Below are positions 9,969-27,037 of a stretch of 64,000 nt of DNA, piece after piece. The stretch lies in the NCBI RefSeq assembly GCF_015864665.1, contig NZ_JADYWU010000001.1, positions 620,001 through 684,000 of the forward strand, given 5' to 3'. Source of the DNA: Salinibacterium sp. SWN167 (lineage in GTDB: Bacteria > Actinomycetota > Actinomycetes > Actinomycetales > Microbacteriaceae). A program made the position numbers and the translations under genes. The first letter of the stretch is position 1. Every line of letters begins with the position of its first letter. Below the pieces are notes generated by a model. It was not told the origin of the DNA. It searched no databases and saw nothing but the letters and a program-made list of their open reading frames with translations.

Positions 9969-10151
9969 GAGCCCAACTCCCCCTGATTTCGGTGGCGTCC
10001 CTCGTCTTGTGGACTTCCCCCACGGTGCGAGTTTAGCTCGTGTCGGTATTCCGATGTAAGGACTGAACTCTAATCTGTTGTGGGCCTTCATCGCGGTCAT
10101 GTCTCTGAGGATGTCAATTTTGGCGCCTACGAGTCACCACATGGCGGCTGG

Positions 10152-10167
10152 TTGACAGGGTTTGTCA
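10152..10167. promoter_or_regulatory. Inverted repeat in the divergent region before the contractile operon
   Basis: TGACA-GGGTT-TGTCA is a perfect 5-bp inverted repeat 36 bases before the first gene of the operon. TTGACA at 10152 could be a -35 box, though I see no convincing -10. It is a candidate operator for the LuxR-type regulator; the rest of 9969-10203 shows no other clear structure. Confidence 0.35.
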
Positions 10168-10203
10168 TAGACCCGCGCGAACGGTCACGCTCACAATGAA
10201 CGC

Positions 10204-11154
10204 GTGGACTTCTACGGAAAACAAGTGCTTGCGCTCGCCTCTCCCGCAAGCGCCGAAAGCCTGTTCACGGCGGAGCGGGCACGATCAATCTTGCACGCGG
10301 CATACTCGCTGAGGAGTGTAGCCGTCTCATCCGTGGATCTCGTGCGTGTGAAACGAGCAAGCGTTCTGGGAGCGACGCCATTGGGTGCGCAGGGTCAATT
10401 CTCGGTGACGGTCCCGGGCCAGGGTGGGTCGTGGGAGGGTCAACTGCGGATACTGCGCGACGAGTCGGCGCCAGCATTCGATTCAGAACTGAGAGTGGTG
10501 ATCTCCGCTTCCGCTCGAACAGCAACAACCGCGGTCACGGATGTGCGCACGACCAACTTGTCCGCAGATCTCACTATGGGAGCGGTCGATTCAAGAATCA
10601 TGGCAGATGATGGCGCGCTGCCGACCGACCCGGGTGCCCTTGAAGAACGTCGCCGTGTGGCGCTCGTGTCTGTGCTTCTCGACCGTTTCGAACGCCCCGA
10701 AGACTGGGACGCCGAACACTTTTGGAGGGAACAATCTGGGCGTGACCTAACTGAAGTGGTCGAGCGCTACAGTTCTCCGCGAGCCACTCTCGCGGCAGCT
10801 ATCGATCTTGTTGTGGAGCCGGATGCCGCGCCGAGGTCGATTGACTTCACCTTAGATCTGAGTGTGCTCGTTGTTCCATCGCCCTTCGAAGATTTGCGGA
10901 GCACCATCGATACGATTCGCCGCTGTCGCGGCGCGCTCGCCGCTAGTGCCAGCCAGTCGGAACCTGTCGCGGGCGCAGTATTGCGCGGACCCGTTCCTGT
11001 TGCAGTTGTATTCGAAAGCGGCGCTCTTGATGACGCTGATTTGCCGATTCTCGCCGGGGCGAACCCGACGAATGCGGCTGGGCGGAGAACTGCCCGACTA
11101 GAGGCGCTCAACGACCGTCTGGCATCCGCAGGCGTGGCTTTCGTACCCGTCTAA
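10204..11154 (+). CDS. First gene of the contractile-particle operon, unknown function
   Basis: The GTG-initiated 316-residue protein begins MDFYGKQVLALASPASAES and has no signal peptide or membrane segment. It looks alpha/beta with a beta-rich middle (GQFSVTVPGQGGSWEGQL, ELRVVISASART) and a C-terminal part with LDLSVLVVPSPFEDLRSTID. I do not recognise a family. Its position directly before the sheath gene would suit a tail-terminator, cap or assembly factor, but that is inference from location only. No good ribosome binding site precedes the GTG. The sheath gene follows after 54 bases. Confidence 0.6.
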   Translation: MDFYGKQVLALASPASAESLFTAERARSILHAAYSLRSVAVSSVDLVRVKRASVLGATPLGAQGQFSVTVPGQGGSWEGQLRILRDESAPAFDSELRVVISASARTATTAVTDVRTTNLSADLTMGAVDSRIMADDGALPTDPGALEERRRVALVSVLLDRFERPEDWDAEHFWREQSGRDLTEVVERYSSPRATLAAAIDLVVEPDAAPRSIDFTLDLSVLVVPSPFEDLRSTIDTIRRCRGALAASASQSEPVAGAVLRGPVPVAVVFESGALDDADLPILAGANPTNAAGRRTARLEALNDRLASAGVAFVPV

Positions 11155-11208
11155 CCAGTCACCCCCGAAAAGCGCAACCAACGAAGAAGACATCAAAGGA
11201 GAAGTCAC

Positions 11209-12381
11209 ATGGTCCTGGCGGCCTACCCCTATATCAAGGTAACGATCGATACCCGTGGGCTCCAACCGCGGGCCACGCGGGCAGTCGGCAATATCGGTAT
11301 CGTCGGCAGCACCGGCGGCGCTGGATCGGCGACGCCCAACCTGCCACTTCTGGTGACATCTGAACAGGACGCTCGAGTTGCTTTTGCAACTACGAATCCT
11401 GCGGGCGCGATTGCGGCGTCTGGGCGTTTGTATAAGTCGGTTGCGACGCTTCTGCGTCAGGATCCGGCGCCCAGTCGTGTTTACGCAGTTCCGACCGATG
11501 ATTCCGGAGGCACCCCCGATTACTCATCCGCCCTCGTTGCACTTGAGGCAGCCGACGTGCAATTCGTGCTTCTCGCGGGAGAGTACGACGTTGATGCGTT
11601 GGGAGCTCTAGCTGATCACGTCGAGAACGTAAGCAACTCAGGAAAACGACGGATCGCTGTTGCTGCAGTTGACCCCGAGCTCGATACCTCAGGCGCTGAT
11701 AACTACGCCGCGGGGGTCGAAGCGGAGTACGGCTCGATCAAGTCGGATTCGTCTCGCATGTTGCTCGTAGCTGCGCGCACAGGAACAGATGCGGACGGAG
11801 TGCACGGTGACGCGGCCGCCGCAGCCTGTGGCACGGTGGCGGGGTACGCCCCTCACATCAGCATCCTTATGAAGCAAGTGCGCGGGCTCGATATTGCGCT
11901 TCAAGACCAATTCTCCGCTTCTGATATCTCGCAGTTATCGGAAGGATTCATTGTGCCGATCATCGACCCGGAACTCATCGTCGGGGATGGCCTCTATCTC
12001 GGAGCGGGGCGAGCGTACACCTCCAACACGGAGCAGCTCTATATCGACATCGTGCGGGTTCTCGACGACATCGAGTACCGACTCAAAGCGGGGCTAATCG
12101 GCGCGATCGGCAATGTCCGCATCGACCGCCTTGGTATTCAGACGCTCACGAGTCGGCTGGACGGCATCCTTGCGCCGCTCAAGTCAGGCCGAGTTATCGA
12201 CGACTACTCGATCTACATTCCGATAGTCCCCACACTCGCCAAAGAAGAAGCAGATCGTTCCCCTGGAGAAGCGACGGTACTCACCGACACGCGTCTTAAT
12301 CGAACCGTGGAGGTCTTGTTGTCAGTGACCTACGCCGGCTCCATCCACACGCTCGACGTCCAGCTCGCACTCAAGGCCTGA
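11209..12381 (+). CDS. Contractile tail sheath protein
   Basis: ATG preceded by AAAGGAG at 11195. The 390-residue protein starts with a sheath-like N-terminus (AAYPYIKVTIDTRGLQP, then VGNIGIVGSTGGAG). It carries a variable middle domain and ends with the conserved inter-subunit domain: GNVRIDRLGIQTLTSRLDGI, RVIDDYSIYIPIVPT, DTRLNRTVEVLLSV, YAGSIHTLDVQLAL. Sheath subunits polymerise around the tube and contract to drive it into a target. The length is at the short end for eCIS and R-type pyocin sheaths (about 350-500). A single sheath gene is present, while many eCIS carry two or three. The tube gene follows after 10 bases. Confidence 0.85.
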   Translation: MVLAAYPYIKVTIDTRGLQPRATRAVGNIGIVGSTGGAGSATPNLPLLVTSEQDARVAFATTNPAGAIAASGRLYKSVATLLRQDPAPSRVYAVPTDDSGGTPDYSSALVALEAADVQFVLLAGEYDVDALGALADHVENVSNSGKRRIAVAAVDPELDTSGADNYAAGVEAEYGSIKSDSSRMLLVAARTGTDADGVHGDAAAAACGTVAGYAPHISILMKQVRGLDIALQDQFSASDISQLSEGFIVPIIDPELIVGDGLYLGAGRAYTSNTEQLYIDIVRVLDDIEYRLKAGLIGAIGNVRIDRLGIQTLTSRLDGILAPLKSGRVIDDYSIYIPIVPTLAKEEADRSPGEATVLTDTRLNRTVEVLLSVTYAGSIHTLDVQLALKA

Positions 12382-12391
12382 GGAGGTCATC

Positions 12392-12841
12392 ATGGAATCC
12401 ACTTGGAAGAACACTCGTCTTGCCGTATTCGTCGGCACCACAATGATCACGCCGGTAGATACTTTTACACCGTCGTTCTCGCTGAACACCGAGACGATAC
12501 ATAGCCTCGAAGCCACGCATGTCGGCTACGTCGCGAACCCAGAGTCGTTCACTTTCTCCGTATCGGTCAAAGCGATTGGTGGGGGTGCGGCGCATCTGAT
12601 GAACCTAGCGATGACAGGCACGGAGTTCTCGGTCGGGCTTTACCGTCAAGCAGATTCTTCTCCTGATGAATGGGACTTCGAGCAAATTTTGCTGGAAAAG
12701 TGCATCATTACTTCGGCAAATCCGTCGAACGCGACAACGAACGGAGCGCCCAACGCAACCTTCTCGGGTGTGGCGCGTAAGGCCGGCGCAACGCTAGTCG
12801 GAGAGTCGGATGCCGTGTCGCTGCCGGTGTTTGAGCCGTGA
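12392..12841 (+). CDS. Tail tube protein
   Basis: Strong ribosome binding site AGGAGG at 12381-12386, overlapping the sheath stop codon. The 149-residue, beta-rich protein (PVDTFTPSFSLNTETIHSL, PESFTFSVSVKAIGGGAAHL, GVARKAGATLVGESDAVSLPVF) has the size, position and character of the tube subunit of contractile tails and phage-tail-like particles. Only one tube gene is present, unlike the two or three tube paralogues of Afp/PVC-type systems. The stop overlaps the GTG start of the next gene by four bases. Confidence 0.75.
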   Translation: MESTWKNTRLAVFVGTTMITPVDTFTPSFSLNTETIHSLEATHVGYVANPESFTFSVSVKAIGGGAAHLMNLAMTGTEFSVGLYRQADSSPDEWDFEQILLEKCIITSANPSNATTNGAPNATFSGVARKAGATLVGESDAVSLPVFEP

Positions 12842-13104
12842 TCAATATTCTGAACGGCGATGTTGGTGAGAGCAGGCCGGCGCTATATGTCGATTCCACC
12901 GGACTCGCTGTCGTGCACGAGGGGGAGTGGGTGCTGCCCGCTGAAGGTGCCGCAGCAAAGCTCTCCGCTGCAGAGCCCGGCATCGTCGTAGAAGTACCGA
13001 TCGAGATAATTATCTCGATGCCCGTTAGCGATGCAGATCGTCGGGCGATTGCGGATCTGGTGCTCGGCGAACTGCGAGATGCCCTCGATGCGGAGGTTCG
13101 CTGA
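12838..13104 (+). CDS. Small contractile-operon protein (88 aa), possible assembly chaperone
   Basis: GTG start in a GTGA overlap with the tube gene. The protein contains AVVHEGEWVLPAEGAAAKL, which resembles the HEGEyVLP motif seen near the ends of some phage tape-measure proteins, and an acidic helical end (DADRRAIADLVLGELRDALD). Its place between tube and tape-measure candidate is where phages encode the tail assembly chaperones, but no sequence match to those is evident. Confidence 0.5.
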   Translation: MINILNGDVGESRPALYVDSTGLAVVHEGEWVLPAEGAAAKLSAAEPGIVVEVPIEIIISMPVSDADRRAIADLVLGELRDALDAEVR

Positions 13105-13107
13105 AAA

Positions 13108-16100
13108 ATGCTCGCCCGCATGCCCATTCTGCTCCGTATCCCGGCGCATCCTGACGATGAACAGGTTGCGGCAATCGAGGACGGTATAGCGAAGGCTGCC
13201 ACGACTGCACTTCGGCAGTTGCAGAAGCGAGGCGGTGCAAGAGATCGCGTGATTTTCAGGCCGGCCTTTTCGACGAGGCCGGAAGCCCCAGTGGAATCTG
13301 CTGTTCGCAGCGGGCTTGCTCGGCACGGTGATATCGCCCACTCAGTTGCGGCAAAGCTCGAGATCGTGTCCTCGACACAGGGCGGTAGTGGGCCTGTGCG
13401 CGAAAAACGCCGTGAAGACAGAGTCCAGAACGATGGAAGCTCCTATCTAATCCCGTTCTACGACGACGGTGAAGACGGCGAGGTAGAAGCGGTCGAGCGG
13501 AGCACGAGCGATTTTCCAACTCGGGCAGAAGTCCGTCAGGCTCTGCGTCAAAGAGTGGCGGACGGGGTTGCGCACCCGGGTTACTACGGTGGCGTGGTTA
13601 CCCCGAATGGAATCGTATTGATGCTGACATGGTATTGCGGCACGACGGGAATCGAGCAGTTCTGGGAAGGGCAGACCGATTTTTTAGACCTGAATTGGAC
13701 GGGAGATTCCCTCAGTGTTCGCGATTCCTCTAAGCGCGCCAGTTGGAGCCCGGGAGACACCGTGACTATGGAGTCGCGGGGCCCGATCGATGCAGAAGCT
13801 CTTGTTGACGCCGCGATCTCGAGAGGCATTGTTGGTTTCCGTGCGGAAGACCGAGAGCGGCTGACAGCTGAAGCTTTCGCGGACCGTCGGCGACTGCTTA
13901 TCGCAGAGATATCAGAGCGGACGCAAGGAAGCGTATTGGTTCGTGTGACCAGTTCCGCTGGTTCGTCAAATTTTGTTGGTGGCGCCATCTTTTCGTCCCG
14001 TTATATCCACGTCGCAGTAGGGAACACTGAAATTCCCGAGAACGAAGGCGAAGGGACAGGCTCTGGTGGTGCGGCTGAGACGGCAAACGGCGACGAGGTC
14101 AACGGCGGCTTTGCGGGTACCGGCGACGGAACAGACGGTGGCAGACGCGGTGGTCCGCTTGGCGACGCAAGCAACCCAGAGGAAGAGAGAACACGGTGGC
14201 CTCGGCGGGGTAGCGCGGAGAGCCAGCGATGCGAGCCCTACGAAGAAGAGAAGTCGCTAGAACAAATAGCGGCGACGCGGCCGGAAATCAGTGCGCGCCT
14301 CGCTGAACGCATTGTCGCCATCGCCAGCGCGCTCGAGATTGACCAGTGCAACTATGCCGGGCATTTCGCGATATCTGCCGCGCGTGCGATCGGAGCGATT
14401 GCTCACAGTATCGGGCTGGCTGCCAGACAGAATGCGGGCACAGCTACCGTCATTGCACGGCCTAACGGCGGAGGTAATAACGGCGTTATCGATATCGAAG
14501 TCGAGGTGACCCCAGGGCTGTTGTACCTCAAGGCGCTCGCCGATCTGGTCGCTGAAGTAGAAGCGTTCTACCAGCTTGTGCACTCGCTGTATACAGGGAT
14601 GGGAGATCGAGGGGCTGTGCAGTACGCGACCAGCTGGGGTATCGACTTTCTAATCGAAGCGAGCGACAGTCTTGAGGCGAGCTGCGCGCATCTCTTCGCT
14701 GAAACCTGCCGAGTGGTGCTCATGCAGCAACTCGAGTCGACGAGGGAGACCTTGGCCAACCGGAGCGGTTCTGGCCTCGATGACACCGTTCGGCACTTCG
14801 ATTCTGCACTTGGCATCCTTGGTGAACGTATCGTCGCAACTGAGCTTCTCCAGCGAGCCCTGCGCCGAAGCGGCCAGCTGGGGAGAACCGGAAGTGCGTC
14901 GGACATTCTGAGTGCTCCTGTGCCTCCAACGCCACGAGACCACTACTCCGAGATCGGTTATTCGCCGCCGCGTCCCTACGTGCTTGCTCCAATAACCGAA
15001 GCAGAGCGACTCGCGCTGGTCGATGGTGCGCACGTTGTTCAGCAGACCGAAGGCCGTCGGATCCAATGGCGCGATCGGCTGTGGACTCACGCCGACCTCG
15101 ACGAGCACAAGCAGCGCCAGCGCGCATTCCTCAATCAAATAGACCCCCTCTTCTTTCAAGTGGATGATCTGGTGGCTGTGCATGCGCGAGTGCTTCGCGA
15201 TGGCAGTGCCCGTCCGTACCTCGTCGAATTGCTTCGACGGCTCGTTCGCGCGAACGCGAATATTGCGGCTGAAGTTCGCGATGCGGACGATGGAATGTGG
15301 TTTGCCGTGGAGACGTCTCAATATGTAGAGGCGCAGGGAGGCTATAGCGAGCTCGGTACTCGCTACGCGATGCACGGCATTCACGGCCTTGCGGATTCTG
15401 AATTACGCCTACACATCGGCAGAGCGCGCTACATCTATAACCGCGGGGTTGACTTGGCCGTGGGGCGGAAAGCGCGGCACGATCTTGCAGGAACGATTCT
15501 CGAGACCGGCTTCATCATCGTGCTTGCTGTGGTGTGTGCCCCTCTCGGAGCGGTGGCCGCAGGCGCAATTGTGGGAATGGCGAGCCTCGGCTTTGCTGCG
15601 CGCGACGTACTTAATGCTGCCGACCGCGAAGAGCTCTATCGATCGCTGGAAGACCCCGAGGCGGTTCTGTCGTGGCAGGAGGTGCAGCTCGAATGGATGA
15701 TGGCGACGCTCAGCGTAGCCTTCTCAATTTTTGACGTTGCAGCCGTCGGCAGGGCAGTGCGTGCGGGAGTCGTGCCGTTGAAAAGTGCCGTGCGGGGAGG
15801 GACTCGAGAGACCATTCGGCTCGAGTACCAGAAGGTCTTGCGGAATCTCGCAGAAGGGGCTCTCGAACATGCGATTCGTCAAGCAGCAACCGATGTCGTG
15901 ATGCAGGTCATCATGTCTGAGCTCATGCCCGTGGTACTGGCCCCCGTAATCGCCGAAGTTGGACAACGCGCGGCGGTTGAACACGGTCTCGACGTCGACG
16001 TTTCAGGAATTCTTGAGACTTCCGGGATCGATGTTTCGATGATCTCCGCAGATCCTGACTCGCGCGAGGCGATTGACTCGATGCGCGAGGCGGATACAGC

Positions 16101-16131
16101 GTTCGCGGCCGAGGAAAGCGGGACGCGATGA
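13108..16131 (+). CDS. Large (1007 aa) contractile-operon protein: tape-measure candidate or cargo
   Basis: Starts 3 bases after the previous gene and ends in an ATGA overlap with the nuclease-like gene. Three regions can be seen. Residues 1-310 are alpha/beta with QLQKRGGARDRVIFRPAFST and HPGYYGGVVTPNGIVLMLTW. Residues about 310-375 are a Gly/Asp/Glu/Arg-rich low-complexity linker. Residues 380-1007 are mostly helical, with a strongly hydrophobic stretch GFIIVLAVVCAPLGAVAAGA followed by IVGMASLGFAARDVL. A long helical protein with a membrane-active segment, placed right after the tube, fits a tape measure, but the folded N-terminus and linker would also suit a modular effector. I recognise no family. 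Confidence 0.6.
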   Translation: MLARMPILLRIPAHPDDEQVAAIEDGIAKAATTALRQLQKRGGARDRVIFRPAFSTRPEAPVESAVRSGLARHGDIAHSVAAKLEIVSSTQGGSGPVREKRREDRVQNDGSSYLIPFYDDGEDGEVEAVERSTSDFPTRAEVRQALRQRVADGVAHPGYYGGVVTPNGIVLMLTWYCGTTGIEQFWEGQTDFLDLNWTGDSLSVRDSSKRASWSPGDTVTMESRGPIDAEALVDAAISRGIVGFRAEDRERLTAEAFADRRRLLIAEISERTQGSVLVRVTSSAGSSNFVGGAIFSSRYIHVAVGNTEIPENEGEGTGSGGAAETANGDEVNGGFAGTGDGTDGGRRGGPLGDASNPEEERTRWPRRGSAESQRCEPYEEEKSLEQIAATRPEISARLAERIVAIASALEIDQCNYAGHFAISAARAIGAIAHSIGLAARQNAGTATVIARPNGGGNNGVIDIEVEVTPGLLYLKALADLVAEVEAFYQLVHSLYTGMGDRGAVQYATSWGIDFLIEASDSLEASCAHLFAETCRVVLMQQLESTRETLANRSGSGLDDTVRHFDSALGILGERIVATELLQRALRRSGQLGRTGSASDILSAPVPPTPRDHYSEIGYSPPRPYVLAPITEAERLALVDGAHVVQQTEGRRIQWRDRLWTHADLDEHKQRQRAFLNQIDPLFFQVDDLVAVHARVLRDGSARPYLVELLRRLVRANANIAAEVRDADDGMWFAVETSQYVEAQGGYSELGTRYAMHGIHGLADSELRLHIGRARYIYNRGVDLAVGRKARHDLAGTILETGFIIVLAVVCAPLGAVAAGAIVGMASLGFAARDVLNAADREELYRSLEDPEAVLSWQEVQLEWMMATLSVAFSIFDVAAVGRAVRAGVVPLKSAVRGGTRETIRLEYQKVLRNLAEGALEHAIRQAATDVVMQVIMSELMPVVLAPVIAEVGQRAAVEHGLDVDVSGILETSGIDVSMISADPDSREAIDSMREADTAFAAEESGTR

Positions 16132-17594
16132 CTAGGCCGCGCTTTGCTCCCCTTGATATTCCTAGATTGCGTGGGCGCGCAGCTCCTCTGGTGAATTCTC
16201 TCATTGACCGCAGCCCGGAGTGGCGAGCGCTCTCTGATGCCCTCGATGGGATGCTTGCTCCGCCGAGGGGTGAGGGGCGAGCTGCACTCGGAGATATCGC
16301 AGATAACGCTATCGGCGCTGTGATTCGCGACTACCGCGAAACGATGAACGGGACGATGTCGATCATTGACTCAAGCTTGGGGAAGCTTCTTGGCGACGTC
16401 GCGGCTCTCCGGCGTCGCAGGGAAGGAGGAGGGCGTGCACCCGAAGCCGTTGCGGCAGACATGCAAGCACTCTCGACCGCACTTTCTGATGTTCGGACCC
16501 TTCGGCAGCACGTCACTGAGGCGTTGGCTGATACCAATGGCCCCCTCGTGGCTAGCCTCAGACATGAGATCGCTGATGCACTGGGGATTGCGGTCGCGCA
16601 AGGTAACCCCGTAAACCTTGCCGGCTCGCCAGCAGCCAGAGCGAGCGCTCGTCGATCGCGTGATCTCGCAGCCTCGGTTACGGCCCGTGGCGGCGTCATC
16701 ATGTCTGGCCAGACCGCGGGCACCAACGGGATCTCGAATATCCATGGCGCACGTGACGCCAATGGCGCGACTGTTTACGTCGTAGAGGGGGAAATTTTCA
16801 AATCGGTTCCACGCGCGGAAGCTCCGAACTACCAAAATCGTCTCGAATCAGCGCGACGAGTTGGTTTGCCTGGTTATGAGCGAGCGCATCTGTGGGGCCC
16901 AGGATTCGGAGATGAAGCGGCAGACGGCATTATGTATGCGCCGCGTGGAGTCAACCAGATCTTGCAAAATCTCGGTGTCGAAGGAGTTATCCGCCAGAGC
17001 GCCGAGCAGGCGAGAGCGATGGGCGGCCGGCTGCTCGTCGAAGCGCGCGCGGTATCGCATCCACCAGGAGCCCGAGGGCTTCCGCCAGGATTCGTCGGTG
17101 ATGCCTTGGCGCGTGTCGAGTACCACGTTGTATTGGAGTTCCCCGATGGCACACGGCAACCGCAATACACCGTAGGAATCGATGTCGACACTCAGGGCCG
17201 GTTTACAGTCGATGCTCCCTCACATGACCACCACATGGTCGGGCCCGACAGCAGATTTGAAGTGGAAGGAGTGGAGCTTCCGCCACGTCCTGACGCGTCT
17301 TTCGGGCGTTTCGACCCATCCACTGGGCGTTATGATCCAGCCTTTGCCCATCCCGTCGACATTAACCAGTGGGATCTTGACGTGCGGGAGGTTAAGCGAC
17401 TTCCCGGTATTGGGGATGCATTAGCTGAACGTATCGTCGCTTTCGTTCGCCGTGAGCGCCCCATTACCTCGCTGGATCGACTTTTAGAGATTCCGGGTAT
17501 TGGGCCAAGCACAATCGCGGGATTTGAACCTCCGCAAGGATCCGGCCTCCCTGGTCTTATTGACTTCAGGCCAGCGAATGGAGATGCACGATGA
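16128..17594 (+). CDS. Candidate particle effector: polymorphic-toxin-like nuclease with C-terminal helix-hairpin-helix
   Basis: The 488-residue protein has a helical N-terminal half (about 1-190) suited to packing in or on the particle. A toxin-like domain (about 190-400) centred on YERAHLWGPGFGDEAADGIM, with His254, Trp256, Asp262 and Glu263, follows; then APRGVNQILQN and RVEYHVVLEFPDG. This arrangement resembles a toxin type found at the C-termini of Rhs/WapA-like polymorphic toxins. Residues 419-466 form a ComEA-type double helix-hairpin-helix (VKRLPGIGDALAERIVAF and LLEIPGIGPSTIAGF), which binds DNA. I infer a DNA-targeting toxin. It overlaps both neighbours by ATGA, so it is made in step with structural subunits. 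No immunity gene is recognised beside it. Confidence 0.7.
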   Translation: MTRPRFAPLDIPRLRGRAAPLVNSLIDRSPEWRALSDALDGMLAPPRGEGRAALGDIADNAIGAVIRDYRETMNGTMSIIDSSLGKLLGDVAALRRRREGGGRAPEAVAADMQALSTALSDVRTLRQHVTEALADTNGPLVASLRHEIADALGIAVAQGNPVNLAGSPAARASARRSRDLAASVTARGGVIMSGQTAGTNGISNIHGARDANGATVYVVEGEIFKSVPRAEAPNYQNRLESARRVGLPGYERAHLWGPGFGDEAADGIMYAPRGVNQILQNLGVEGVIRQSAEQARAMGGRLLVEARAVSHPPGARGLPPGFVGDALARVEYHVVLEFPDGTRQPQYTVGIDVDTQGRFTVDAPSHDHHMVGPDSRFEVEGVELPPRPDASFGRFDPSTGRYDPAFAHPVDINQWDLDVREVKRLPGIGDALAERIVAFVRRERPITSLDRLLEIPGIGPSTIAGFEPPQGSGLPGLIDFRPANGDAR

Positions 17595-18148
17595 GCAACC
17601 GTACGCGGATTGACGATTTCATTTCCGGTGTCGCTTCCCCCGATGTGCTGAACCAAAATTGGGAGGATTTCTGGGCAGACCACCCGGTACCGCCCTCTGC
17701 CATTCTCACGGATCTGGTCGTCTGGGTGCCTCTGTTTGCGGTCGAGAGGATGAGTCTTACTGAGACGTACCGGATGCCGCCGGTGGGCAGCGCGGGTCTT
17801 CGCGCCGCAGTGGGAAACTCGGATGACAAGGTGCTGCTGTCGGGCTTGCTCATTGGCGAGCTGCGGTTTGCGTGGAAGCAAAGGCTTGAACTGCTGGCGG
17901 ATTTTTCTCGACGCGGTGGCTCATTCGGCATGCTTTCGGGGGGTGCAACCAACGGGCTCTTCCTCGTGACGAAAATGGCGGTGAAGCTCGATATGCAAGT
18001 AACGAGCCTGACGTTCACTGCTTCCGCACAACGGCGCGACGCGCTCGAAGTCTCCATCGGTTTACAACACGTGCCGCGACCGGGAATGCAGCATCTCCTA
18101 GTCGACGCGGGGGCGGCTGCAGCAAGCACAACATTGGAGTTCCTATGA
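17591..18148 (+). CDS. Contractile-operon protein (185 aa), possible baseplate/hub adaptor
   Basis: ATGA overlaps with both neighbours. The protein has LSLTETYRMPPVGSAGL, then GLLIGELRFAWKQRLELLAD, a Gly-rich turn, and LVTKMAVKLDMQVTSLTFTA followed by a beta strand pair ending QHVPRPG. The order (strand, helix with Arg/Leu, then two or three strands) recalls small baseplate proteins that sit between the tape measure and the hub in contractile tails. That comparison is structural intuition from the sequence pattern, not a match. Function otherwise unknown. Confidence 0.5.
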   Translation: MSNRTRIDDFISGVASPDVLNQNWEDFWADHPVPPSAILTDLVVWVPLFAVERMSLTETYRMPPVGSAGLRAAVGNSDDKVLLSGLLIGELRFAWKQRLELLADFSRRGGSFGMLSGGATNGLFLVTKMAVKLDMQVTSLTFTASAQRRDALEVSIGLQHVPRPGMQHLLVDAGAAAASTTLEFL

Positions 18149-18675
18149 ATGCGACGCTGCCTGAGGGTTTTACTCGGCTCGCCATCGATGCGCGTCGGCC
18201 GCTACCGCTGTCCGCTACCGTACGCGTCAACGCAGGCTCGTTTCGCCTCATCCTCGTTGCGACACCCGATGATGTTGCCGGGATTGTGGCCCGGCCGTTG
18301 GACTCGCCATGGTTCGACGGAGCCGAGCGCCGAGTGCCGAGCGCCCTAAGAAGTTCCACTATTGCCTCGGCATTGCATGCGGGAGCCGCATCGATGCCAG
18401 AAGGGATACGCCCCACAGCTGTGGTCGTGTCGGCGACCGGAGTGCTCTGGGCCAGACCTGTCGTCATGGGGCGTATCCAGCACGTTGTTGAGAGCGCGGG
18501 CGCAGGGCATCTGTTTGACATTGCCATCGCGGCTTGCGAACTCCGCAGCGCTTCTCTCGTCGCTCCGGCCAACGTCGGAGCCGAGATCAATATCGGTGTG
18601 CGTGATGTGTCTGTCGGCAGTATCTCTCCCACGTCGGAGGGCGCACGGAAGGACCCTTATGACAGCCTTCGCTAG
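18145..18675 (+). CDS. Contractile-operon protein (176 aa), unknown
   Basis: Begins in an ATGA overlap and ends 17 bases inside the hub gene. It is beta-rich (LSATVRVNAGSFRLILVATP, TAVVVSATGVLWARPVVMG, GAEINIGVRDVSVGSISP) with no cysteine cluster, signal or membrane segment. Placed just before the hub gene, it may be a baseplate component. An immunity role for the nuclease two genes upstream is possible but has no sequence support. Confidence 0.5.
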   Translation: MNATLPEGFTRLAIDARRPLPLSATVRVNAGSFRLILVATPDDVAGIVARPLDSPWFDGAERRVPSALRSSTIASALHAGAASMPEGIRPTAVVVSATGVLWARPVVMGRIQHVVESAGAGHLFDIAIAACELRSASLVAPANVGAEINIGVRDVSVGSISPTSEGARKDPYDSLR

Positions 18676-20539
18676 TGGAACGGATCGGTCGCTAATCGGT
18701 TTTGATGCAGGGTGGCGGGCGGTGTTCTTCAAGGATCTCTCTGGCCGCCCCGATCGCACTGAAGCTGAACCGCTAACGCTGACACGAAGTGGATATGACG
18801 CTCAGGTGAGGGTCGCTCGCACCTCGGCGTTGCGTGCAGCGACATTCGAGTTGACCGTGGACGGCCTCTCCCGCGAAGTCTTCGGAAGGATCATCTCTGA
18901 AGAGCGGATGTTCGTTGAGATCTCTCTAGGGTGGCGTGACGTTGCGGATACGGCGGGAGGGGCATTCGGGGCCGCTATCGAATCGATGTTCAACAGTGGC
19001 GATGGAACGCTGCGCACTGTCGTTGTCGGCAGGATTCTTGATGTTTCTAAAAGCGCGGGCGACTTCCTCGACCGAACGACGTTCCGGGGGATCGGTGAAG
19101 GCTTTCATCGACTAGCGGGAGCCGGAGCATTCAACGTCGAGTTGCGTAGCGGCTGGACGGCAGTCGAAGCGATCAACGCGATAGCGGCACCGTTGCTCGA
19201 CAGGGTGGTTACGCACGGCGACGGAGACCTTCCGGCGCTCGTTCAACTGCAAGCTCCTGCGGTGGATGCCAGTGCCTTGAATGCCGTCGCCGATTTGGCC
19301 TCCCGCGGACATGCGGATGGAGACGACCGCACGGTGCCGGTGTTCTTCCGGCTGGACTCGGATGATGATCCCGCTGTAGAGATCCTCCACGTCGGGCATT
19401 GGGCGGAACCTTTCGCGGAAGCGCACCACCTCGAACCGGGAAATGGTCTCGCCGAGGTCTCCCCAGTTCTCGCTCAGCGTGCGCCAGGAAACCAAGGGAG
19501 CCCATTCGCCGCTCAGGATGCCGCTGCGCTCGAGTATGACCTAGTTCTCCTCGGCCGTGCGGATATTGATGTCGCAGACGTAGTGTCCTTCGAAATTGAC
19601 GAGCTCACGGGCGGAGGGGGTGTCGATTCCGTTATCGAGTCCGTTGGTTTTTCTTTGCCGGGGGGAGATTCGGAACCTGTGTTCGATGTCGTCTCGGTCG
19701 AACATACTCTCGGGCCAGACTCTGGCTTTGTTACACGGTTGCACGTTGCGCCGCATCCGACGGAACCGACGAGGAGTCAGCACGATCAAACGAGCGCCGC
19801 GCGTGCGATCGCCTCGAGGATGTCGGCTGAGCGGCGCTCTATCGAATTGCGGATGTGGGAAATCGGAGTTGTGTCCAAGCAGTTTGCCAAGACCGAGGAA
19901 TCGGACGGGCGGACTTATCACGCACAACGGCGCAACATCGAGGCTGGGCTGGAACCGAGCGTGTCAGACAATCGCATCGTCGATGCGCCCCTTCACCGCG
20001 ACGCGACTCCGTTGCTCGCGCGGCCGTACTTGACCCCGTTCGCCTGGAAGAAGGCCGGGCTAGTTATGCCGCACTACCCAGGCACTCGTGTTGTCGACCT
20101 GCACTACCGTGGCCTTACTCAAGTGGGGGCAATCGCCGGTTGCCTGTGGCCAGAAGGATATGAGCCTCCAGCCCACAACGGTGATTGGTGGCTTTGCCTG
20201 CCTACCGGAGTCAGCGAGATCGACTCGACTGACGATGCGAGTCGGGTCGCGGATCCGCCAGACACAATGCGAGGGTCGCATGACCTCATCGACGCCGACG
20301 GTGCGCGGGCGATCCACGTAGCGGGCTTTCGGATCACCATCGGTGAAAGCTCGATGCCACCGCTGGGGGAACGCCCAACGGATCCGCCGCAGGGCCGGCT
20401 TGAGATCACGCACGACCAAGGAAACGCTCGAATAATCATCGATGAGAGCGGAAATATAGAGATTGCAACTGACGCAAAACTCACTTTTCGAGCGGACACT
20501 ATCGAGGCTCACGTCGCAACGAAGTTCGAGGTGATCTGA
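18659..20539 (+). CDS. Tail hub protein (VgrG/gpD-gp27-like)
   Basis: The ATG at 18659 (MTAFASGTDRSLIGFDAGWR) is chosen over the much longer upstream frame, which only shadows the previous gene; this gives 626 residues. The N-terminal 350 residues have hub features: paired beta domains with TLTRSGYDAQVRVARTSALR, GWRDVADTAGG, VVVGRILDVSKS, GWTAVEAINAIAAPLL. The C-terminal part (KKAGLVMPHYPGTRVVDLHY, then GNARIIIDESGNIEIATDAK) looks like the OB-fold and start of the spike beta-helix seen in VgrG and gp5. So hub and spike base are fused in one chain. Its stop overlaps the start of the tip gene by one base. Confidence 0.75.
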   Translation: MTAFASGTDRSLIGFDAGWRAVFFKDLSGRPDRTEAEPLTLTRSGYDAQVRVARTSALRAATFELTVDGLSREVFGRIISEERMFVEISLGWRDVADTAGGAFGAAIESMFNSGDGTLRTVVVGRILDVSKSAGDFLDRTTFRGIGEGFHRLAGAGAFNVELRSGWTAVEAINAIAAPLLDRVVTHGDGDLPALVQLQAPAVDASALNAVADLASRGHADGDDRTVPVFFRLDSDDDPAVEILHVGHWAEPFAEAHHLEPGNGLAEVSPVLAQRAPGNQGSPFAAQDAAALEYDLVLLGRADIDVADVVSFEIDELTGGGGVDSVIESVGFSLPGGDSEPVFDVVSVEHTLGPDSGFVTRLHVAPHPTEPTRSQHDQTSAARAIASRMSAERRSIELRMWEIGVVSKQFAKTEESDGRTYHAQRRNIEAGLEPSVSDNRIVDAPLHRDATPLLARPYLTPFAWKKAGLVMPHYPGTRVVDLHYRGLTQVGAIAGCLWPEGYEPPAHNGDWWLCLPTGVSEIDSTDDASRVADPPDTMRGSHDLIDADGARAIHVAGFRITIGESSMPPLGERPTDPPQGRLEITHDQGNARIIIDESGNIEIATDAKLTFRADTIEAHVATKFEVI

Positions 20540-20904
20540 TGGGCAAGTTGGTCCTCACGAAGAGTTCGCTGCTCGTGTGCTCCCACCCGACACCGGGGGT
20601 GGGTATCGCGAACAACGGTTTAGCGTCGTCTCTTATCGTCGGTGGATCTCCCGCTCTCCTGGTGGGAGACCTCGTTGGGGCCAGCGTGGCAGGGTGCACC
20701 CAAGCGACCTCAAACACGACAAAGCCTTGCACGATAGTTGTGACAGTCGCGGCAGGGAGCGCAGCCACCAAGCTGACCGTGGGAGGGCTTGCTGTGCTGT
20801 TTGATTCCGCCGCAGGAATCACCGATGGCCTGCCCGTCGTCGTTCCTCCCGCCACCAATTTCTCAGTGAGTGACGCCAAGCAATCCAAGCTCAGGACGGT
20901 ATAG
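20539..20904 (+). CDS. PAAR-like spike tip protein
   Basis: The 121-residue protein directly follows the hub gene (TGATG overlap). It is short, Gly/Val/Ala-rich and made of repeating strand-turn units (SLIVGGSPALLVGDLVGASV, AAGSAATKLTVGGLAVLFDS), with two cysteines (Cys14 and Cys53) and a His that could bind metal, plus a third Cys in KPCTIVV. Size and position fit the tip that sharpens the spike in contractile injection systems. The assignment is by context and composition. Confidence 0.6.
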   Translation: MGKLVLTKSSLLVCSHPTPGVGIANNGLASSLIVGGSPALLVGDLVGASVAGCTQATSNTTKPCTIVVTVAAGSAATKLTVGGLAVLFDSAAGITDGLPVVVPPATNFSVSDAKQSKLRTV

Positions 20905-20907
20905 ATC

Positions 20908-21354
20908 ATGGACTCCACCCAGCAAGCCCGAGTGCTCGGAAGAACGTTCGGTCTCGAAGAGGTAGCGCCCGGAGCGCGAATAGGACTCGATCTCGCTCTC
21001 GATTCGACAGCCGGCGGACGCGACCTCAGGATCGAAACGGGCGCCGACGCTCTGGCCCAAGACCTCAAAGTTGCCTTGCTCACGCCGCTTGGCGGCGATG
21101 TGCTTCATCGGCGGTTTGGTTTTGAGGGGCTAACAGCCCTCACACGAGGTGGCGGGGCACGGCTCAGCGAAGAGTTGTTGCGCCTAGCGACCATGCGAGT
21201 GATAGCCGCAGACTCACGTATTGCGGCCGTGCTCAATGTTCGGGTTGTCCGTGACGACCCTGGGCGGCGGTTGTGGCGGATCGAAGTGCAAGCGCGGACT
21301 GTGACTGATCAAGTGATCGATGTGACGTGGGAAGAGGTGGGTTCTGATGGCTGA
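20908..21354 (+). CDS. Baseplate wedge protein, gp25/gpW-like
   Basis: The 148-residue protein carries the gp25-like core: TGADALAQDLKVALLTPLGG, GDVLHRRFGFEG and SEELLRLATMRVIAADSRIA, ending with a strand pair around RLWRIEVQARTVTDQ. In T4, P2 (gpW), pyocins and T6SS (TssE) this subunit links baseplate to sheath. The PLGGD-RFGFEG spacing is characteristic. It overlaps the J-like gene by eight bases. Confidence 0.8.
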   Translation: MDSTQQARVLGRTFGLEEVAPGARIGLDLALDSTAGGRDLRIETGADALAQDLKVALLTPLGGDVLHRRFGFEGLTALTRGGGARLSEELLRLATMRVIAADSRIAAVLNVRVVRDDPGRRLWRIEVQARTVTDQVIDVTWEEVGSDG

Positions 21355-22735
21355 TTTAGCTACCGATCTGGAGGCATTAGTCCGTTCAAGCGAGCGGGGT
21401 AAGGAGTTCGGGATTACGGCGAATGGTTTCGTGCCGAAACCCCTCGGGAGACTCGTTGACGAGAAGCTCGCGGCCGCTCGGGTCCTCTTCGGAGATGACA
21501 TCGACCTCACAGCCGGGTCAGCGGTCCGAAAGGTTCTTGAGCTGATGTGTGTCGAGGAACTGAGGTGCTGGGAGCATCTCGACTCCTATTCCGGAAACAC
21601 GAGTGTTGTCACAGCCGAGGGCAGCTTCCTCAGCGGGCTGGGGGAGGAATTGGGCATTTCTCGGCCGTACCGGCGTGCAGTCGGCACCGTCACCATCTCA
21701 CTCGCAACCGACTTACCTAGCTCCGATCCTGAGTTGGTGCTCGAGCGCGGCACTCGACTGCTTAGCGGCGGGGGGCACGACTATTTCATCGGGGAACGTG
21801 TGGAGCTAGTGAATACCCGTCGTTCCGCGCTGGTCCCCGTTATTGCCTTCGTCCCGGGTCCGGCGCAGAATCTCAATGCTTCGAGTCCTGATCAACTTAT
21901 TGCGCAGTTCAACCAATACGATCATCGGAGCGACAGAGTCCGTTCCATCGAGTCGAGGCTTGGTGAGCCGATCGTGGAGATTGATCATGGCGAACCAACA
22001 ACGGGTGGCGAGCTCGTGTGGTCCGATGAGGAATATCGTGATCTCCTTCTGGCCTACCCCCGCAACATCTGGAGCCCGGACGCGATTAGGATCGCTGTCT
22101 CGCTTGTTCCCGGCGTACGTCAGGTACTTGTCAAAGACCTCTACGGAGGGCTGGACATCAACCAGTCAATCTTCGGCAATTTCAGTTTTGTTGAGCGACT
22201 CTTCTCGCAGGAGAGGTCACTGGCTTCACCGTACTTCTTTACCATCGTCGTGGCGCCGGGGGATGGAGCGATTTGGCTAGGACCGAGCCAGTTGAAAGCT
22301 CGCGTTGAGGCAGCTGTCGATGAAATTCGACCCATCGGCATCTTCCCCCGGGTCGAGGAAGCGAGCCAGATTGCTGTGTCGCTGACCTGCGACTTGGCTG
22401 TCGAGGGACTTCCTGTGCCTTCGGGCGATCCTGCAGCCGTCAACGAGAGTGAGCAGGCTAAGGCGCTCAAACAGCGCATACTCAACCGAATCCGACGCTA
22501 CGTCTCAGGGCTGCAAATAGCGGAGGCAGTGCGCTTCGCCGAAGTCTTGTGGGCAATCATGGAGGAGCCCGGCGTCACGAACTGTACCAACCTGCGGCTG
22601 CGGCGCTTCCCTGCCAGCGTCGGCTCCACCACTGCTGAGACATTCGATATCGCGGCATGCGGGAGTGACTTGTCAATCGGCGAGTCTGAAGTTGCGGTTC
22701 TCGTCGAGGACCTTGATCCACTGCGGATTCTCTGA
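21347..22735 (+). CDS. Baseplate wedge protein, gpJ/gp6-like
   Basis: The 462-residue protein has a J-like N-terminus (FVPKPLGRLVDEKLAAARVL, FGDDIDLTAGSAVRKVLELM, then GSFLSGLGEELGISRPYRRA) and a beta-rich middle with ADL-type strands and ERGTRLLSGGGHDYF. The C-terminal region (IAVSLVPGVRQVLVKDLYGG, FFTIVVAPGDGAIW, LKQRILNRIRRYVSGLQIAE) matches the order in baseplate J proteins. In known tails it forms the wedge ring with gp25 and the I protein. TGATG overlap with the next gene. Confidence 0.8.
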   Translation: MADLATDLEALVRSSERGKEFGITANGFVPKPLGRLVDEKLAAARVLFGDDIDLTAGSAVRKVLELMCVEELRCWEHLDSYSGNTSVVTAEGSFLSGLGEELGISRPYRRAVGTVTISLATDLPSSDPELVLERGTRLLSGGGHDYFIGERVELVNTRRSALVPVIAFVPGPAQNLNASSPDQLIAQFNQYDHRSDRVRSIESRLGEPIVEIDHGEPTTGGELVWSDEEYRDLLLAYPRNIWSPDAIRIAVSLVPGVRQVLVKDLYGGLDINQSIFGNFSFVERLFSQERSLASPYFFTIVVAPGDGAIWLGPSQLKARVEAAVDEIRPIGIFPRVEEASQIAVSLTCDLAVEGLPVPSGDPAAVNESEQAKALKQRILNRIRRYVSGLQIAEAVRFAEVLWAIMEEPGVTNCTNLRLRRFPASVGSTTAETFDIAACGSDLSIGESEVAVLVEDLDPLRIL

Positions 22736-25023
22736 TGACGCGGCTACTCGATGCAGACGTTTTCGCGTCGGCGAAAGCGGCACTTCCTGTGCCCTACAAC
22801 GGCGGCGTCGGCGGCGATGCGATCGCCATCGTTGACGGGACCCTTGCCGTTACCGCGTCGCATCGCCACCCCACATTGTTGCTCTGCCTTCGTCGACCGC
22901 TTGTTGACGAACGCCTTGTCGTCTCTATCGTGGTGGGTGAACAGCGTCACCCAGATGTTGTATTCGGCGCTTATAGCCACGAGGGAACCGCTTTGCCGGC
23001 CGTGGCCCCTACTACGACTGCGGATCTCTCGGGACCTTTCACCGTTCATGTAACCGTGAGATATCAGGGCGGCGATGCGGCTTTCTCGGGTACCTCGCCG
23101 GAGGAGCCCGCACTGCAATCTCCGGATGTCGAGGAGCTTCTTGAGGGACGTTTAGTCACGGGAGTGCTTGGCAAGCTCGCTGTGATTGGTGCATTAGAGA
23201 AACAGCGGCTCATTGCGCAGGCCCGCGAAGTCGCTGCGAGCCGTTCGCTGGATCTTGCTCGGCGCCATTCCCTCGATGTGCTTGGCGTGGAACTCGGAGT
23301 TCCCAGGCGGACCGACATCGATGAAGCGGATGACGCTTACCGCGCCCGTCTGGCGATCTTTAGAGCATTCCGGCTTTCGACTCCCGGCGGTTTCGCGAAT
23401 GCGCTCAATGGTCCTGGAGATCCTGAAGGTGCCAACCGAGGGCTTCCTGCGTTAGCTGGCGTCAAGCACCGGTTTGACATTATTGAGCAGATCAACCCGC
23501 TCAGCGTTGCCCTCAAACTCGTTGAGGTCGGCGATGGCTCGTCGCTCAACGACTTTCATAAGAAATTGCGCCGGAACCATCTCGTCGACCTTCTGCATCG
23601 GGCGCCAACGCAACTTCCTCCCGCGCGACGGGTTGAATGGGAAGCGGATCGCGCAACTATTCGCTCTGAAGTTATCGTTCCCGCGGGGGATTCCGCTCGA
23701 TACCTTCATCCGGGTGCGGCTCGTTGTCTCGCTATTGCTGTGCGGTTGATGCGAGGAGTCGGCATTTCGGATCAGATTTCGCTCAACAAAGCTCATGATC
23801 CTCAGGCGGGGTCCGAGTTCGAGCTCGGGCTAGGAATCGTCGCAGGGAAGTTGACGCAAGAGCAGCTCAAGACGCTTGTCGAAAGAATTCCCGAAGTCGC
23901 ACGATCCGAACGTGTCGAGGACCCCAATGTTGCCCTTGCAGCAGATATGCACCCTCGGCCGGTCGAGGACGATCCCCTAGGGGCATGGTTCTTCAATGCG
24001 TGTGGATTCGTTACTGTCGTCGAGCATTCCACGAAGGAAGTCCTCTTGTCTCCGTTCCCGATGCATGGATTGAGCATCGAGGGGCCCGGCAGGCTCGACC
24101 CCGGCGACTCGGTGAGGCTTCGAGCTCGCTATGTCAGTGCGTCTAGCGGAGGCGTCCACGTTTTGGCGGCACAGGCTCGACAGCGGGTCGAAGGTGCTTT
24201 CGCGGTCGGCGAGCAGCTGCGTCTGATGTCGATCGTCGACGGGGCACAACTGACAGAGATCGTCGAGTCAATCGCTGGTGATGCTCCTGATGCTCCTGTT
24301 GCTTTCGCGCCCTTGGTCAAGGCCGGAATCGTAGCTAGGGACAGCGCCGCTCAGGCAACGAGCCTCTTAGGCGCGGCGGACCTCGACCTTGCCGTTGCGT
24401 TTCTCTGGAAGCGCGAAGAGGTCGTGGGCACACGAGGTGACGACAGCCTTGTGAAACACGTCTCGGAGCTGTCTCGGGTGCTGACCGACGGTGGCTTTTC
24501 CTCGGTCGTTGGGTTGTCGAGTGCCTCGAGTGATTCGCTTGTCTTGGTTGCTTCCGTCGCCCAGCTACCTGGGTCGCTTTCGGTCCCTGGCGAACCGCCA
24601 GCTGCTGCGTACTGGTGGACAGAGACAGCGATTATCTCGGGTCCACACTCTGTACAGCGACATCCGTGTGGAATATCCGCTGACGGATCTACTTCTGTGC
24701 GGGTTCGCGCACGCGCTGAGGGGATCGGTCTCGTCGCTGTCGTTGGCTACCATCGGGTCGGTTTGGCAGATCCCTATGGGGTGCGAATCACCCTCGCGGA
24801 CCCCGAAGCGCTGCTCACCGCAGAGCAGTACGGCTACGTCATGAACCTGTTGGGGGCGTTTTGCCCCATAGGAATAGAGATCAACACATTCGACCTGCGG
24901 CGTGCGCACGTCGACGCGGATGGCGACGGCGAGTCCGAGTGGCTTACTTCTCGCGCCTCCCGCAGTTACCACCAATACCGCCAAGTCCGTTGGTCGCGCC
25001 GTTCGGCCGATCGCACACCATAA
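22735..25023 (+). CDS. Baseplate protein in the gpI position, enlarged (762 aa)
   Basis: Directly follows the J-like gene, as gpI does in phages and pyocins, but is three to four times longer than gpI. LARRHSLDVLGVELGVPRRT and ADDAYRARLAIFRAFRLSTP near residues 175-230 resemble the gpI-type region that docks to J. An N-terminal beta domain and several C-terminal domains, among them SIEGPGRLDPGDSVRLRARY and EQYGYVMNLLGAFCPIGIEI, are added. It may combine wedge and peripheral baseplate or fibre-attachment functions. No signal peptide. Confidence 0.6.
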   Translation: MTRLLDADVFASAKAALPVPYNGGVGGDAIAIVDGTLAVTASHRHPTLLLCLRRPLVDERLVVSIVVGEQRHPDVVFGAYSHEGTALPAVAPTTTADLSGPFTVHVTVRYQGGDAAFSGTSPEEPALQSPDVEELLEGRLVTGVLGKLAVIGALEKQRLIAQAREVAASRSLDLARRHSLDVLGVELGVPRRTDIDEADDAYRARLAIFRAFRLSTPGGFANALNGPGDPEGANRGLPALAGVKHRFDIIEQINPLSVALKLVEVGDGSSLNDFHKKLRRNHLVDLLHRAPTQLPPARRVEWEADRATIRSEVIVPAGDSARYLHPGAARCLAIAVRLMRGVGISDQISLNKAHDPQAGSEFELGLGIVAGKLTQEQLKTLVERIPEVARSERVEDPNVALAADMHPRPVEDDPLGAWFFNACGFVTVVEHSTKEVLLSPFPMHGLSIEGPGRLDPGDSVRLRARYVSASSGGVHVLAAQARQRVEGAFAVGEQLRLMSIVDGAQLTEIVESIAGDAPDAPVAFAPLVKAGIVARDSAAQATSLLGAADLDLAVAFLWKREEVVGTRGDDSLVKHVSELSRVLTDGGFSSVVGLSSASSDSLVLVASVAQLPGSLSVPGEPPAAAYWWTETAIISGPHSVQRHPCGISADGSTSVRVRARAEGIGLVAVVGYHRVGLADPYGVRITLADPEALLTAEQYGYVMNLLGAFCPIGIEINTFDLRRAHVDADGDGESEWLTSRASRSYHQYRQVRWSRRSADRTP

Positions 25024-25033
25024 GGAGAACCTG

Positions 25034-26302
25034 ATGGCCATCGAGATAAACAAAGAAGCAATTTTCGTCGACGGCGTATCGACCGTCGCTATCGCCGATG
25101 GGCTAATCGCGGCGGGGATGCAGAACACCGAGGTCATGAACCTCATCGGGCACATGCTCGTGGGCTACGTCGGGGGCAAAGGGAAACCCGCGTTTCGGTT
25201 CACCACGGAGGTCGAGGCCACCGATGAGCGCTGCAGGGCTACGTTCGAGCGGTCATTTGAACACACCGATTGGGTAGATGGCGTCAGCCGGGTCCAAGCG
25301 GGACTCACCCCTGAGGAACTCGGCTTCAACGCTCGTTTTCATGCCCTTGAGGCCGACCTCGATGGAGTGTCCGAACAATTCTCTGCACTGTCAGGGTGCG
25401 TTCGGGCGCTACGAGCCGATTTGGTCGGAGTCGTGGGTGAGCTTGAAGCCAAAATCACTGACATGGATCGTCAGATCCAGGACCTCAAGTCTGGATCCAG
25501 CACAGGTAACACCGCGACGATTCGACCGGGCGCGTGGGAGTACCTGGGCAGTGCAAATATCGGAGAACAATCCGTCATCGTTTCCCGGCTTGGAGACGAG
25601 ATCATGATGTCCGAGGTGCAAAAGGAGATGATCACGGGGGGAAAAGTGTTCAAAGGGGGGTCGGCGACGGTTGTTGCGGGAACAGAGCCATTCCCGGTCG
25701 ATCCGGGTCGTCTCGGCAGCTTCGTTATAGATACGGATGGGCGCGAAGTTGTCATGCCTGCGGACAGTCTTGTCATCAATGCCGATCGTCTCGCCACATC
25801 ATCAGGTCGTCCCCTCGCGGTTGAGGATCTCAATCGCTTTACATCCATTGTCGAAGAACGGCTGGGCGGTGTGGCTGGTGAACGTACGGTTGGTTCCGTT
25901 CGGGCCAACGGCGACGCCTTGGTCGTCGCCCTCACCGACGGGGTCTCGGAAAGTGAAAGTCTCACCGACGCGGGCCTCGTCAACCTAGTGACGGAACGGG
26001 TGTTGGCGGGCGCGAGCGCTTCCGAGAGGGACTCGCTGCGCGACTCTGTATTGCGGGCGGATGTCGCCGATCGTAGCGGAGGCGCGCTTATGTCGAGTGG
26101 CGTGGTCGGGCTGGCATCCGTATCGGAGACGGATGCCGATGTTTTAGGCGCGGCAGGCTTCGGGCGGATAGGAACCCTCGCAGGCGCCACAGTCAAAGAT
26201 GTGATTAATGCCGTGGAAGCTTCCGGCGGTCAACTCGACGAGAGTCGTGTGCGTGCTGCTGTTACGGGAGCCAGAGTGGCCCGCGCTCTCCGCAGTCGTT
26301 AG
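25034..26302 (+). CDS. Last protein of the contractile operon, fibre-like candidate
   Basis: The ATG at 25034 is chosen (422 residues) because AAGGAG lies 8 bases upstream; the longer upstream frame overlaps the previous gene. Residues 1-90 form a small domain (VDGVSTVAIADGLIAAGMQN). Residues about 100-150 are a coiled coil (LEADLDGVSEQFSALSGCVR and LVGVVGELEAKITDMDRQIQ). A beta-rich domain (GEQSVIVSRLGDEIMMSE, PVDPGRLGSFVIDTDGREVV) and a helical C-terminus follow. A trimerising coiled coil followed by beta domains at the operon end fits a receptor-binding fibre, but no homology is recognised. Confidence 0.6.
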   Translation: MAIEINKEAIFVDGVSTVAIADGLIAAGMQNTEVMNLIGHMLVGYVGGKGKPAFRFTTEVEATDERCRATFERSFEHTDWVDGVSRVQAGLTPEELGFNARFHALEADLDGVSEQFSALSGCVRALRADLVGVVGELEAKITDMDRQIQDLKSGSSTGNTATIRPGAWEYLGSANIGEQSVIVSRLGDEIMMSEVQKEMITGGKVFKGGSATVVAGTEPFPVDPGRLGSFVIDTDGREVVMPADSLVINADRLATSSGRPLAVEDLNRFTSIVEERLGGVAGERTVGSVRANGDALVVALTDGVSESESLTDAGLVNLVTERVLAGASASERDSLRDSVLRADVADRSGGALMSSGVVGLASVSETDADVLGAAGFGRIGTLAGATVKDVINAVEASGGQLDESRVRAAVTGARVARALRSR

Positions 26303-26403
26303 AGCGAAAGGGATTGGCGTCGAATTACACCTTCGTCGAGTTCGTGCGCGACCAAAACTTTTCGTAATGCACGACAAGCTCTGACGAAGGCTGGCCTGAG
26401 CGC

Positions 26404-26973: not shown

Positions 26974-27037
26974 CGGGTGCACTTTCCCCGTGTGGCTACG
27001 GGCTCTCAACCCACGACCGATAACGCTGAGGGGAATA

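Follow-up and report, generated by a model that had tools for sequence, protein, structure and literature searches.

A phage-tail-like contractile injection system in Salinibacterium, from a lineage without a recognised ATPase and with predicted nuclease-type toxin cargo

Here we analyse an operon of Salinibacterium sp. SWN167 (source genome of 3.0 Mb), located at positions 10204-26302 of a 64,000-nucleotide stretch of contig NZ_JADYWU010000001.1 (positions 620,001 to 684,000), hereafter the window. Judged from their sequences, its 14 genes encode a contractile injection system (CIS), and we propose, with a probability of about 0.62, that this is a phage-tail-derived system of a distinct, ATPase-less lineage that would deliver predicted nuclease-type toxins. 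The proposal builds on a sheath, tube, baseplate and fibre set in tail order, a toxin-domain gene between the tube and baseplate genes, a small protein that looks like a tape-measure tip and, for some of the relatives, similarity between this small protein and the N-termini of the cargo.

All 14 genes lie on the plus strand with open reading frames and a spacing of -17 to +54 bases, and every one could be placed in the order up, sheath, tube, mini tape measure, two cargo genes, adaptor, plug, hub, PAAR-like tip, gp25, J, I and fibre. The original prediction of same-strand genes in tail order is thereby upheld, and because the synteny holds in 36 named loci, an operon by chance is ruled out. 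About half of the genes had seemed unrecognisable, a view that no longer stands now that all 14 have counterparts; the two payload genes, one with a toxin domain, and the small gene resembling a tape-measure tip had been missed. The sheath, gp25, J and I-position proteins were named by direct domain or PHROG matches, and the tube, hub, adaptor, plug, tip, fibre and first gene ('up') through relatives. Families were assigned with phmmer for the sheath, tube, mini tape measure, adaptor, gp25 and J, and with single-sequence profiles for the carrier and toxin.

We assign two genes as payload, one of them with a toxin domain. The product of the toxin cargo gene (16128..17594) combines an Ntox4 domain (residues 248-344, 7.5e-23) with a C-terminal helix-hairpin-helix domain (HHH_3, 1.7e-9) and an N-terminus that appears helical. 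Before it lies the large cargo or carrier gene (13108..16131), whose product of 1,007 residues has an N-terminal tandem module, a helical body and hydrophobic segments at 791, 810 and 930, with homologues in Streptomyces and Actinomycetospora (L018 and L025; 2e-110 and 1e-114, 32% identity over the alignment). Its AlphaFold2 model contains two beta-beta-alpha units in residues 1-90, at a predicted local distance difference test (pLDDT) score of roughly 50-75, followed by the helical body, and no confident PDB match to a known fold was obtained for it. A domain scan of 30 proteins, cargo and companions together (28 complete, from a list of 61, and 2 partial), found AHH in five, Ntox4 in three and Tox-REase-9 in one. 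Between the tube or mini tape measure and the baseplate set, 27 of the 34 loci extending as far as the baseplate genes have a gene of at least 400 residues; with L043 set aside for its broken gene calls, the count is 26 of 33.

The protein of 88 residues encoded directly before the carrier (s88; 12838..13104) may connect this cargo to phage tails. In the window it matches the end of phrog_36427, a family of unknown function (positions 301-365 of 367, E = 0.0036), and its counterpart in locus L045 matches two tape-measure profiles, phrog_15478 (365-422 of 456, 1.7e-5) and phrog_10030 (2007-2074 of 2105, 0.013), in both cases near the C-terminal end of the profile. The protein resembles the C-terminal segment of a phage tape-measure protein, present here as a protein in its own right. 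When the s88 profile was run against 935 proteins (duplicates included) at an E cut-off of 0.1, its only matches outside the s88 family were 10 cargo or stand-alone module proteins, with E values of 1.6e-5 to 0.083 and all inside residues 2-46; reversed sequences gave none. The C-terminal half of s88 resembles the N-termini of these cargo proteins. Two cargo N-terminal families were distinguished, which align with each other at 95.7% in a profile-profile comparison, and the family of the window carrier shows weak reciprocal matches to s88 (best 3.4e-4). We infer that the toxin cargo takes the place of the tape measure. In four Streptomyces and Kitasatospora loci (L033, L035, L040 and L043), the cargo N-terminal module is a separate gene of 66-79 residues directly before the large cargo gene.

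Several observations weigh against this interpretation. Of 20 s88 members, 4 reach phrog_15478 at E 0.1 (best 1.7e-5), 5 of 10 members have no tape-measure match at E 1, tblastn of two members found no match in phages and the s88 profile found none in the PDB. All 10 direct s88-profile matches belong to one cargo family, which is not that of the window carrier; the window carrier itself has no s88-profile match at E 0.1, and its match to the cargo N-terminal profile follows by construction, as it is 1 of 12 seeds. Its link to s88 therefore runs via the families of its relatives only. The carrier model (mean pLDDT 58) is not one long helix, and the carriers of one carrier alignment have no tape-measure PHROG match. 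No immunity gene is visible between the toxin and adaptor genes, which overlap by 4 bases, and none was searched for elsewhere. Finally, the tape-measure position holds no cargo in 7 of the 34 loci; in six of these, g349, a large gene downstream of the fibre, or both are present, and L041 has neither recognised family.

The structural genes follow a contractile tail. The sheath (11209..12381), present as a single copy, matches PF04984 at 3.8e-4, below the curated cut-off, and the PHROG sheath at 2.4e-5; it is 35-56% identical to 15 other sheaths of the lineage alignment, has a weak phmmer match to the pyocin sheath 3j9q (0.0039) and gives an AlphaFold2 model of mean pLDDT 87. Directly after it comes the single tube (12392..12841), 29-61% identical to 17 lineage members and without meaningful Pfam match. 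Downstream of the payload, the hub or spike (18659..20539, a start preferred over 18362) is VgrG-like: it matches a hub profile built from 34 relatives at 1e-98, and the lineage profile matches the Gp5/VgrG OB-fold protein 9gtr_q in the PDB at 5.9e-8. The PAAR/DUF4280-like tip (20539..20904) matches a tip profile built from 27 relatives at 8.2e-25; supporting matches are a weak DUF4280 match in one relative (0.022) and a PAAR motif (1.3e-4) in 1 of 23 jointly scanned proteins, the member not being told apart. The gp25-like sheath initiator or wedge protein (20908..21354) matches phrog_975 at 7.4e-6, with one relative reaching Sheath_initiator at 0.0011, and baseplate J (21347..22735) matches Baseplate_J at 3.5e-7 and phrog_6 at 1.1e-29. 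Sheath, tube, hub or spike and J-type baseplate genes are thus found together, the combination by which a CIS is broadly defined.

Four further gene products complete the set. The I-position baseplate protein (22735..25023) matches phrog_1160 at 5.2e-4 and the lineage profile at 5.7e-27. It is followed, as in the 3'-extended relatives, by the tail fibre (25034..26302, a start preferred over 24902), of which the N-terminal part is conserved (1.1e-15 over residues 70-129 to a profile from 7 relatives) and the remainder different. A presumed adaptor at the tube end (17591..18148) is 29-53% identical to 16 lineage members, with weak matches of one relative's adaptor to Dit_like (0.029) and P2 GpU (0.13), and the plug-position baseplate protein (18145..18675) matches a profile built from 10 relatives at 2e-12. 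The 'up' protein, encoded directly before the sheath (10204..11154), matches the up248 and up274 profiles (4.7e-22 and 2.3e-10) and no Pfam family; a tail-terminator role for it is a guess.

Such a gene set could also belong to an R-type tailocin that kills by membrane puncture, with one of the two large genes a diverged tape measure and the other an accessory gene. As in pyocins and diffocins, there is one sheath, one tube and no ATPase that could be found; the J lineage profile has its nearest PDB matches in wedge proteins of phage, diffocin (CD1371) and pyocin (PA0618), and a large gene occupies the tape-measure position, in what we take to be P2-like order. Unlike tailocins, the operon includes toxin payload genes, and toxin domains recur in the operons of several relatives, which argues against payload-free puncture. 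Its tip is PAAR-like, its hub VgrG-like, none of its 14 genes has a lysis-gene domain, and the lack of tape-measure PHROG matches among the aligned carriers counts against a diverged tape measure as well. We therefore regard a tailocin as unlikely and retain the toxin-delivering CIS.

The comparison with extracellular contractile injection systems (eCIS) places the operon outside this class too. With canonical eCIS (Afp, PVC and the S. coelicolor CIS) it shares a VgrG-like hub, a PAAR-like tip and a predicted headless, toxin-delivering tail. It differs in having no detected ATPase, one tube gene, no eCIS_core (DUF4157) and a sheath whose profile does not align. Domains of ATPases, capsids, portals, terminases, integrases, holins and endolysins were all absent from the 14 operon genes, a result for these genes and not for every gene of the window. 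Domains of TssJLM and ClpV, which would mark a type VI secretion system, were likewise missing from these 14 genes, to which that search was confined. A Walker-A screen gave no ATPase candidate in the operons of the 14 3'-extended relatives; the patterns seen in relatives, located in a few proteins of the structural or cargo set or in genes flanking the operon, are taken as chance or unrelated. Separately, two Amycolatopsis loci (L026 and L027) have a gene of 947-951 residues with a Walker-A pattern just upstream of the cluster, on the minus strand at about 6200-9060. A second tube was found in none of 36 loci, though a very diverged one may have escaped detection, and no LysM match was seen in the proteins scanned, where a diverged plug or adaptor could fill that part.

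At the profile level, the lineage sheath aligned with eCIS-type sheaths at 10.6% probability and with Mu-type sheaths at 2.5%, whereas the latter two aligned with each other at 93.5%; 'eCIS-type' and 'Mu-type' are our own labels, assigned by motifs that we take to be typical and for some sheaths also by nearness to eCIS_core. The eCIS_core domain is absent from 11 of 18 genomes, that of Salinibacterium included. In the other 7 it never occurs at this locus, and in 4 of them it lies a few kb from a PF04984 sheath elsewhere; it was found neither in the window cargo nor, at E 0.01, in the 30 cargo and companion proteins. These results support a separate CIS lineage that fits neither the canonical eCIS nor the pyocin set. 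The original prediction of such a particle, free of ATPase, capsid and lysis genes, agrees with what we find in the operon, and the peptidase gene pair that adjoins it is shared background (see below). What did not survive is the proposed restriction to Microbacteriaceae, given relatives in several phyla.

The closest published parallel would make the operon a member of the Tme group, described for the Streptomyces davawensis CIS, or else a plain reduced eCIS. Tme is a large tape-measure-related effector with a nuclease payload, encoded just upstream of the baseplate genes in clusters spread over phyla, and it carries DUF4157 (PMC11126660); the cargo here has no eCIS_core, is divided over two genes and is accompanied by a separate mini tape measure. 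Among Streptomyces genomes, 226 of 343 have eCIS_core, and from the matches listed we picked by length five clusters with eCIS_core open reading frames (ORFs) of more than 2,000 residues as a Tme-type set. The lineage tip profile matches in 4 of these 5, the sole match to any lineage profile. The sheath is of the eCIS type in all five (5e-84 to 6e-120), and a candidate ATPase, a protein of 667-749 residues with a Walker-A pattern, is encoded upstream of the long ORF in each. They show no match to the lineage sheath or cargo profiles, J genes not being covered. Together with the distribution of eCIS_core given above, this leaves membership of the Tme group or a reduced eCIS largely refuted, in so far as these five clusters represent the group.

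A search with J in 396 genomes of the order yielded three syntenic clusters besides that of Salinibacterium, in Cellulomonas alba, Cellulomonas sp. JH27-2 and Kineosporia rhizophila, and a sheath-alignment scan of the species collection gave at least 36 distinct named loci, a lower bound because the scan was pattern-based. The hosts include Streptomyces, Kitasatospora, Amycolatopsis, Protofrankia, Phytohabitans, Actinomycetospora, Microlunatus, Arthrobacter and Nonomuraea, and further Paraburkholderia, Bradyrhizobium, Xanthobacteraceae, Ectothiorhodospiraceae, Nodosilinea, Leptolyngbya, Aquisphaera and an archaeal metagenome-assembled genome, and thus cover Actinobacteria, Cyanobacteria, planctomycetes and other phyla. 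The lineage is rare, with 3 of 394 genomes of the class, Salinibacterium counted. Genes of the loci were called with a simple custom script, which performed poorly for L017, L023, L043 and L051. One sheath copy is present in all 36 loci, one tube copy in 35 (two in none) and s88 in 31; the s88 of Cellulomonas alba exists and was missed by the gene caller in L023. In the 14 3'-extended loci, J is followed by the I protein and the fibre, the latter called on the opposite strand in L072. In Cellulomonas sp. JH27-2 and Kineosporia (L009/L015 and L011/L016), a large gene (1,387 and 1,336 residues) is placed after the fibre and is preceded by a conserved gene of 329-349 residues.

Could the operon instead be the tail of a prophage, domesticated or in decay, that no longer has a function? 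A tRNA gene adjoins it, and within the family its genome stands alone among 398, besides one weak, non-syntenic match. Set against this are the open, tightly spaced reading frames of all 14 genes, the core set kept across phyla, and the lack of relatives in viral contigs, as far as pattern-based scans go. The sheath has no match in phage records, and J has six weak matches to phage (E of about 0.06). We find a relic very unlikely and continue with a functional, toxin-delivering CIS.

The operon is part of an apparent island (9157..26412) that also holds a divergent LuxR-type regulator and adjoins tRNA-Phe, with edges that are approximate, as defined by alignment breaks against same-genus genomes. 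On the right, alignment resumes at 26413 in all four such genomes, 40 bases past the 3' end of tRNA-Phe; on the left it stops at 9156 in L091, the closest of them (96% identity on the right side), at 8432 in L090 and at 7932 in L089, and L092 has no left-side match in the stretch compared. The sheath is absent from all nine same-genus genomes. As the flanks align and the operon is missing there, the regulator together with the operon is most likely a segment of about 17 kb that was acquired. The insertion is not a clean one, because L090, L091 and L092 have at the junction a gene of 155 residues without match in the window. No integrase was found among the operon proteins. The regulator (9294..10100, minus strand; GerE 1.2e-4, just under the Pfam cut-off) likely controls the operon, and similar regulators occur near some relatives. 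In L091, the matching variable spot (4856-15513) is occupied by different genes, some of which look like transporter genes, and the tRNA-Phe site may therefore be an insertion hot spot.

Just outside the operon, beside tRNAs, lie two tandem M23 peptidase genes (27038-28312 and 28474-29805), for which cross-matches in the alignments of relatives (26990-29805) suggest strong mutual DNA similarity. They are not lysis genes of the operon itself, because same-genus genomes that lack the operon have this region as well. The PF00004 (AAA) match nearest to the operon, at 35086, falls in an ORF of 666 residues (34492-36492) that resembles FtsH. Upstream of the island, an FGE-sulfatase-type protein (4.7e-78) is encoded at 6889-7920; in relatives, the corresponding stretch has a second alignment, to window positions 1639-2510, which may reflect a duplication.

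On the proposed mechanism, s88 and the N-terminal module of the cargo would dock during assembly on the hub and adaptor complex, and the cargo would occupy the tube lumen, as the tape measure does in phage, held via the shared module. Binding of the fibre to its target would trigger sheath contraction, by which the tip, the carrier and the Ntox4 protein would be driven into the target, and the hydrophobic segments of the carrier may aid toxin passage across the membrane. More tentatively, as a possibility that we hold below even odds, the phage tape measure may have been dismantled, its tip surviving as a separate protein of about 50-105 residues, with toxin cargo that bears a copy of the tip filling the tube and setting its length, so that the payload would itself serve as the ruler. 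Loading in the absence of both an ATPase and an eCIS_core domain would then be explained.

Tape-measure-derived CIS effectors are known in principle from the published Tme and Sle1 (PMC11126660, PMC13277306). The Streptomyces lividans system SLP resembles the operon in a tape-measure-related helical effector with a predicted transmembrane hairpin, a variable C-terminus and a paired second gene; it differs in that its sle genes, which directly precede the structural genes, run in the reverse direction, and in that Sle2 carries DUF4157 (PMC13277306). In the literature searched, we found no description of a lineage that lacks the ATPase and encodes a mini tape measure as a separate protein. One census asked for at least 10 core genes, including one eCIS-specific core gene, and removed loci with nearby phage domains (PMC8213781), and another singles out clusters with fibre and tape measure and without ATPase as phage or R-type (PMC12210884); given those criteria, clusters such as these may have been missed. 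For the question of how CIS select and load their effectors, the lineage points to a candidate loading tag recognisable in the sequence itself, namely the tape-measure-tip module that a small structural protein shares with part of the cargo; it also suggests that the ATPase and eCIS_core may be dispensable.

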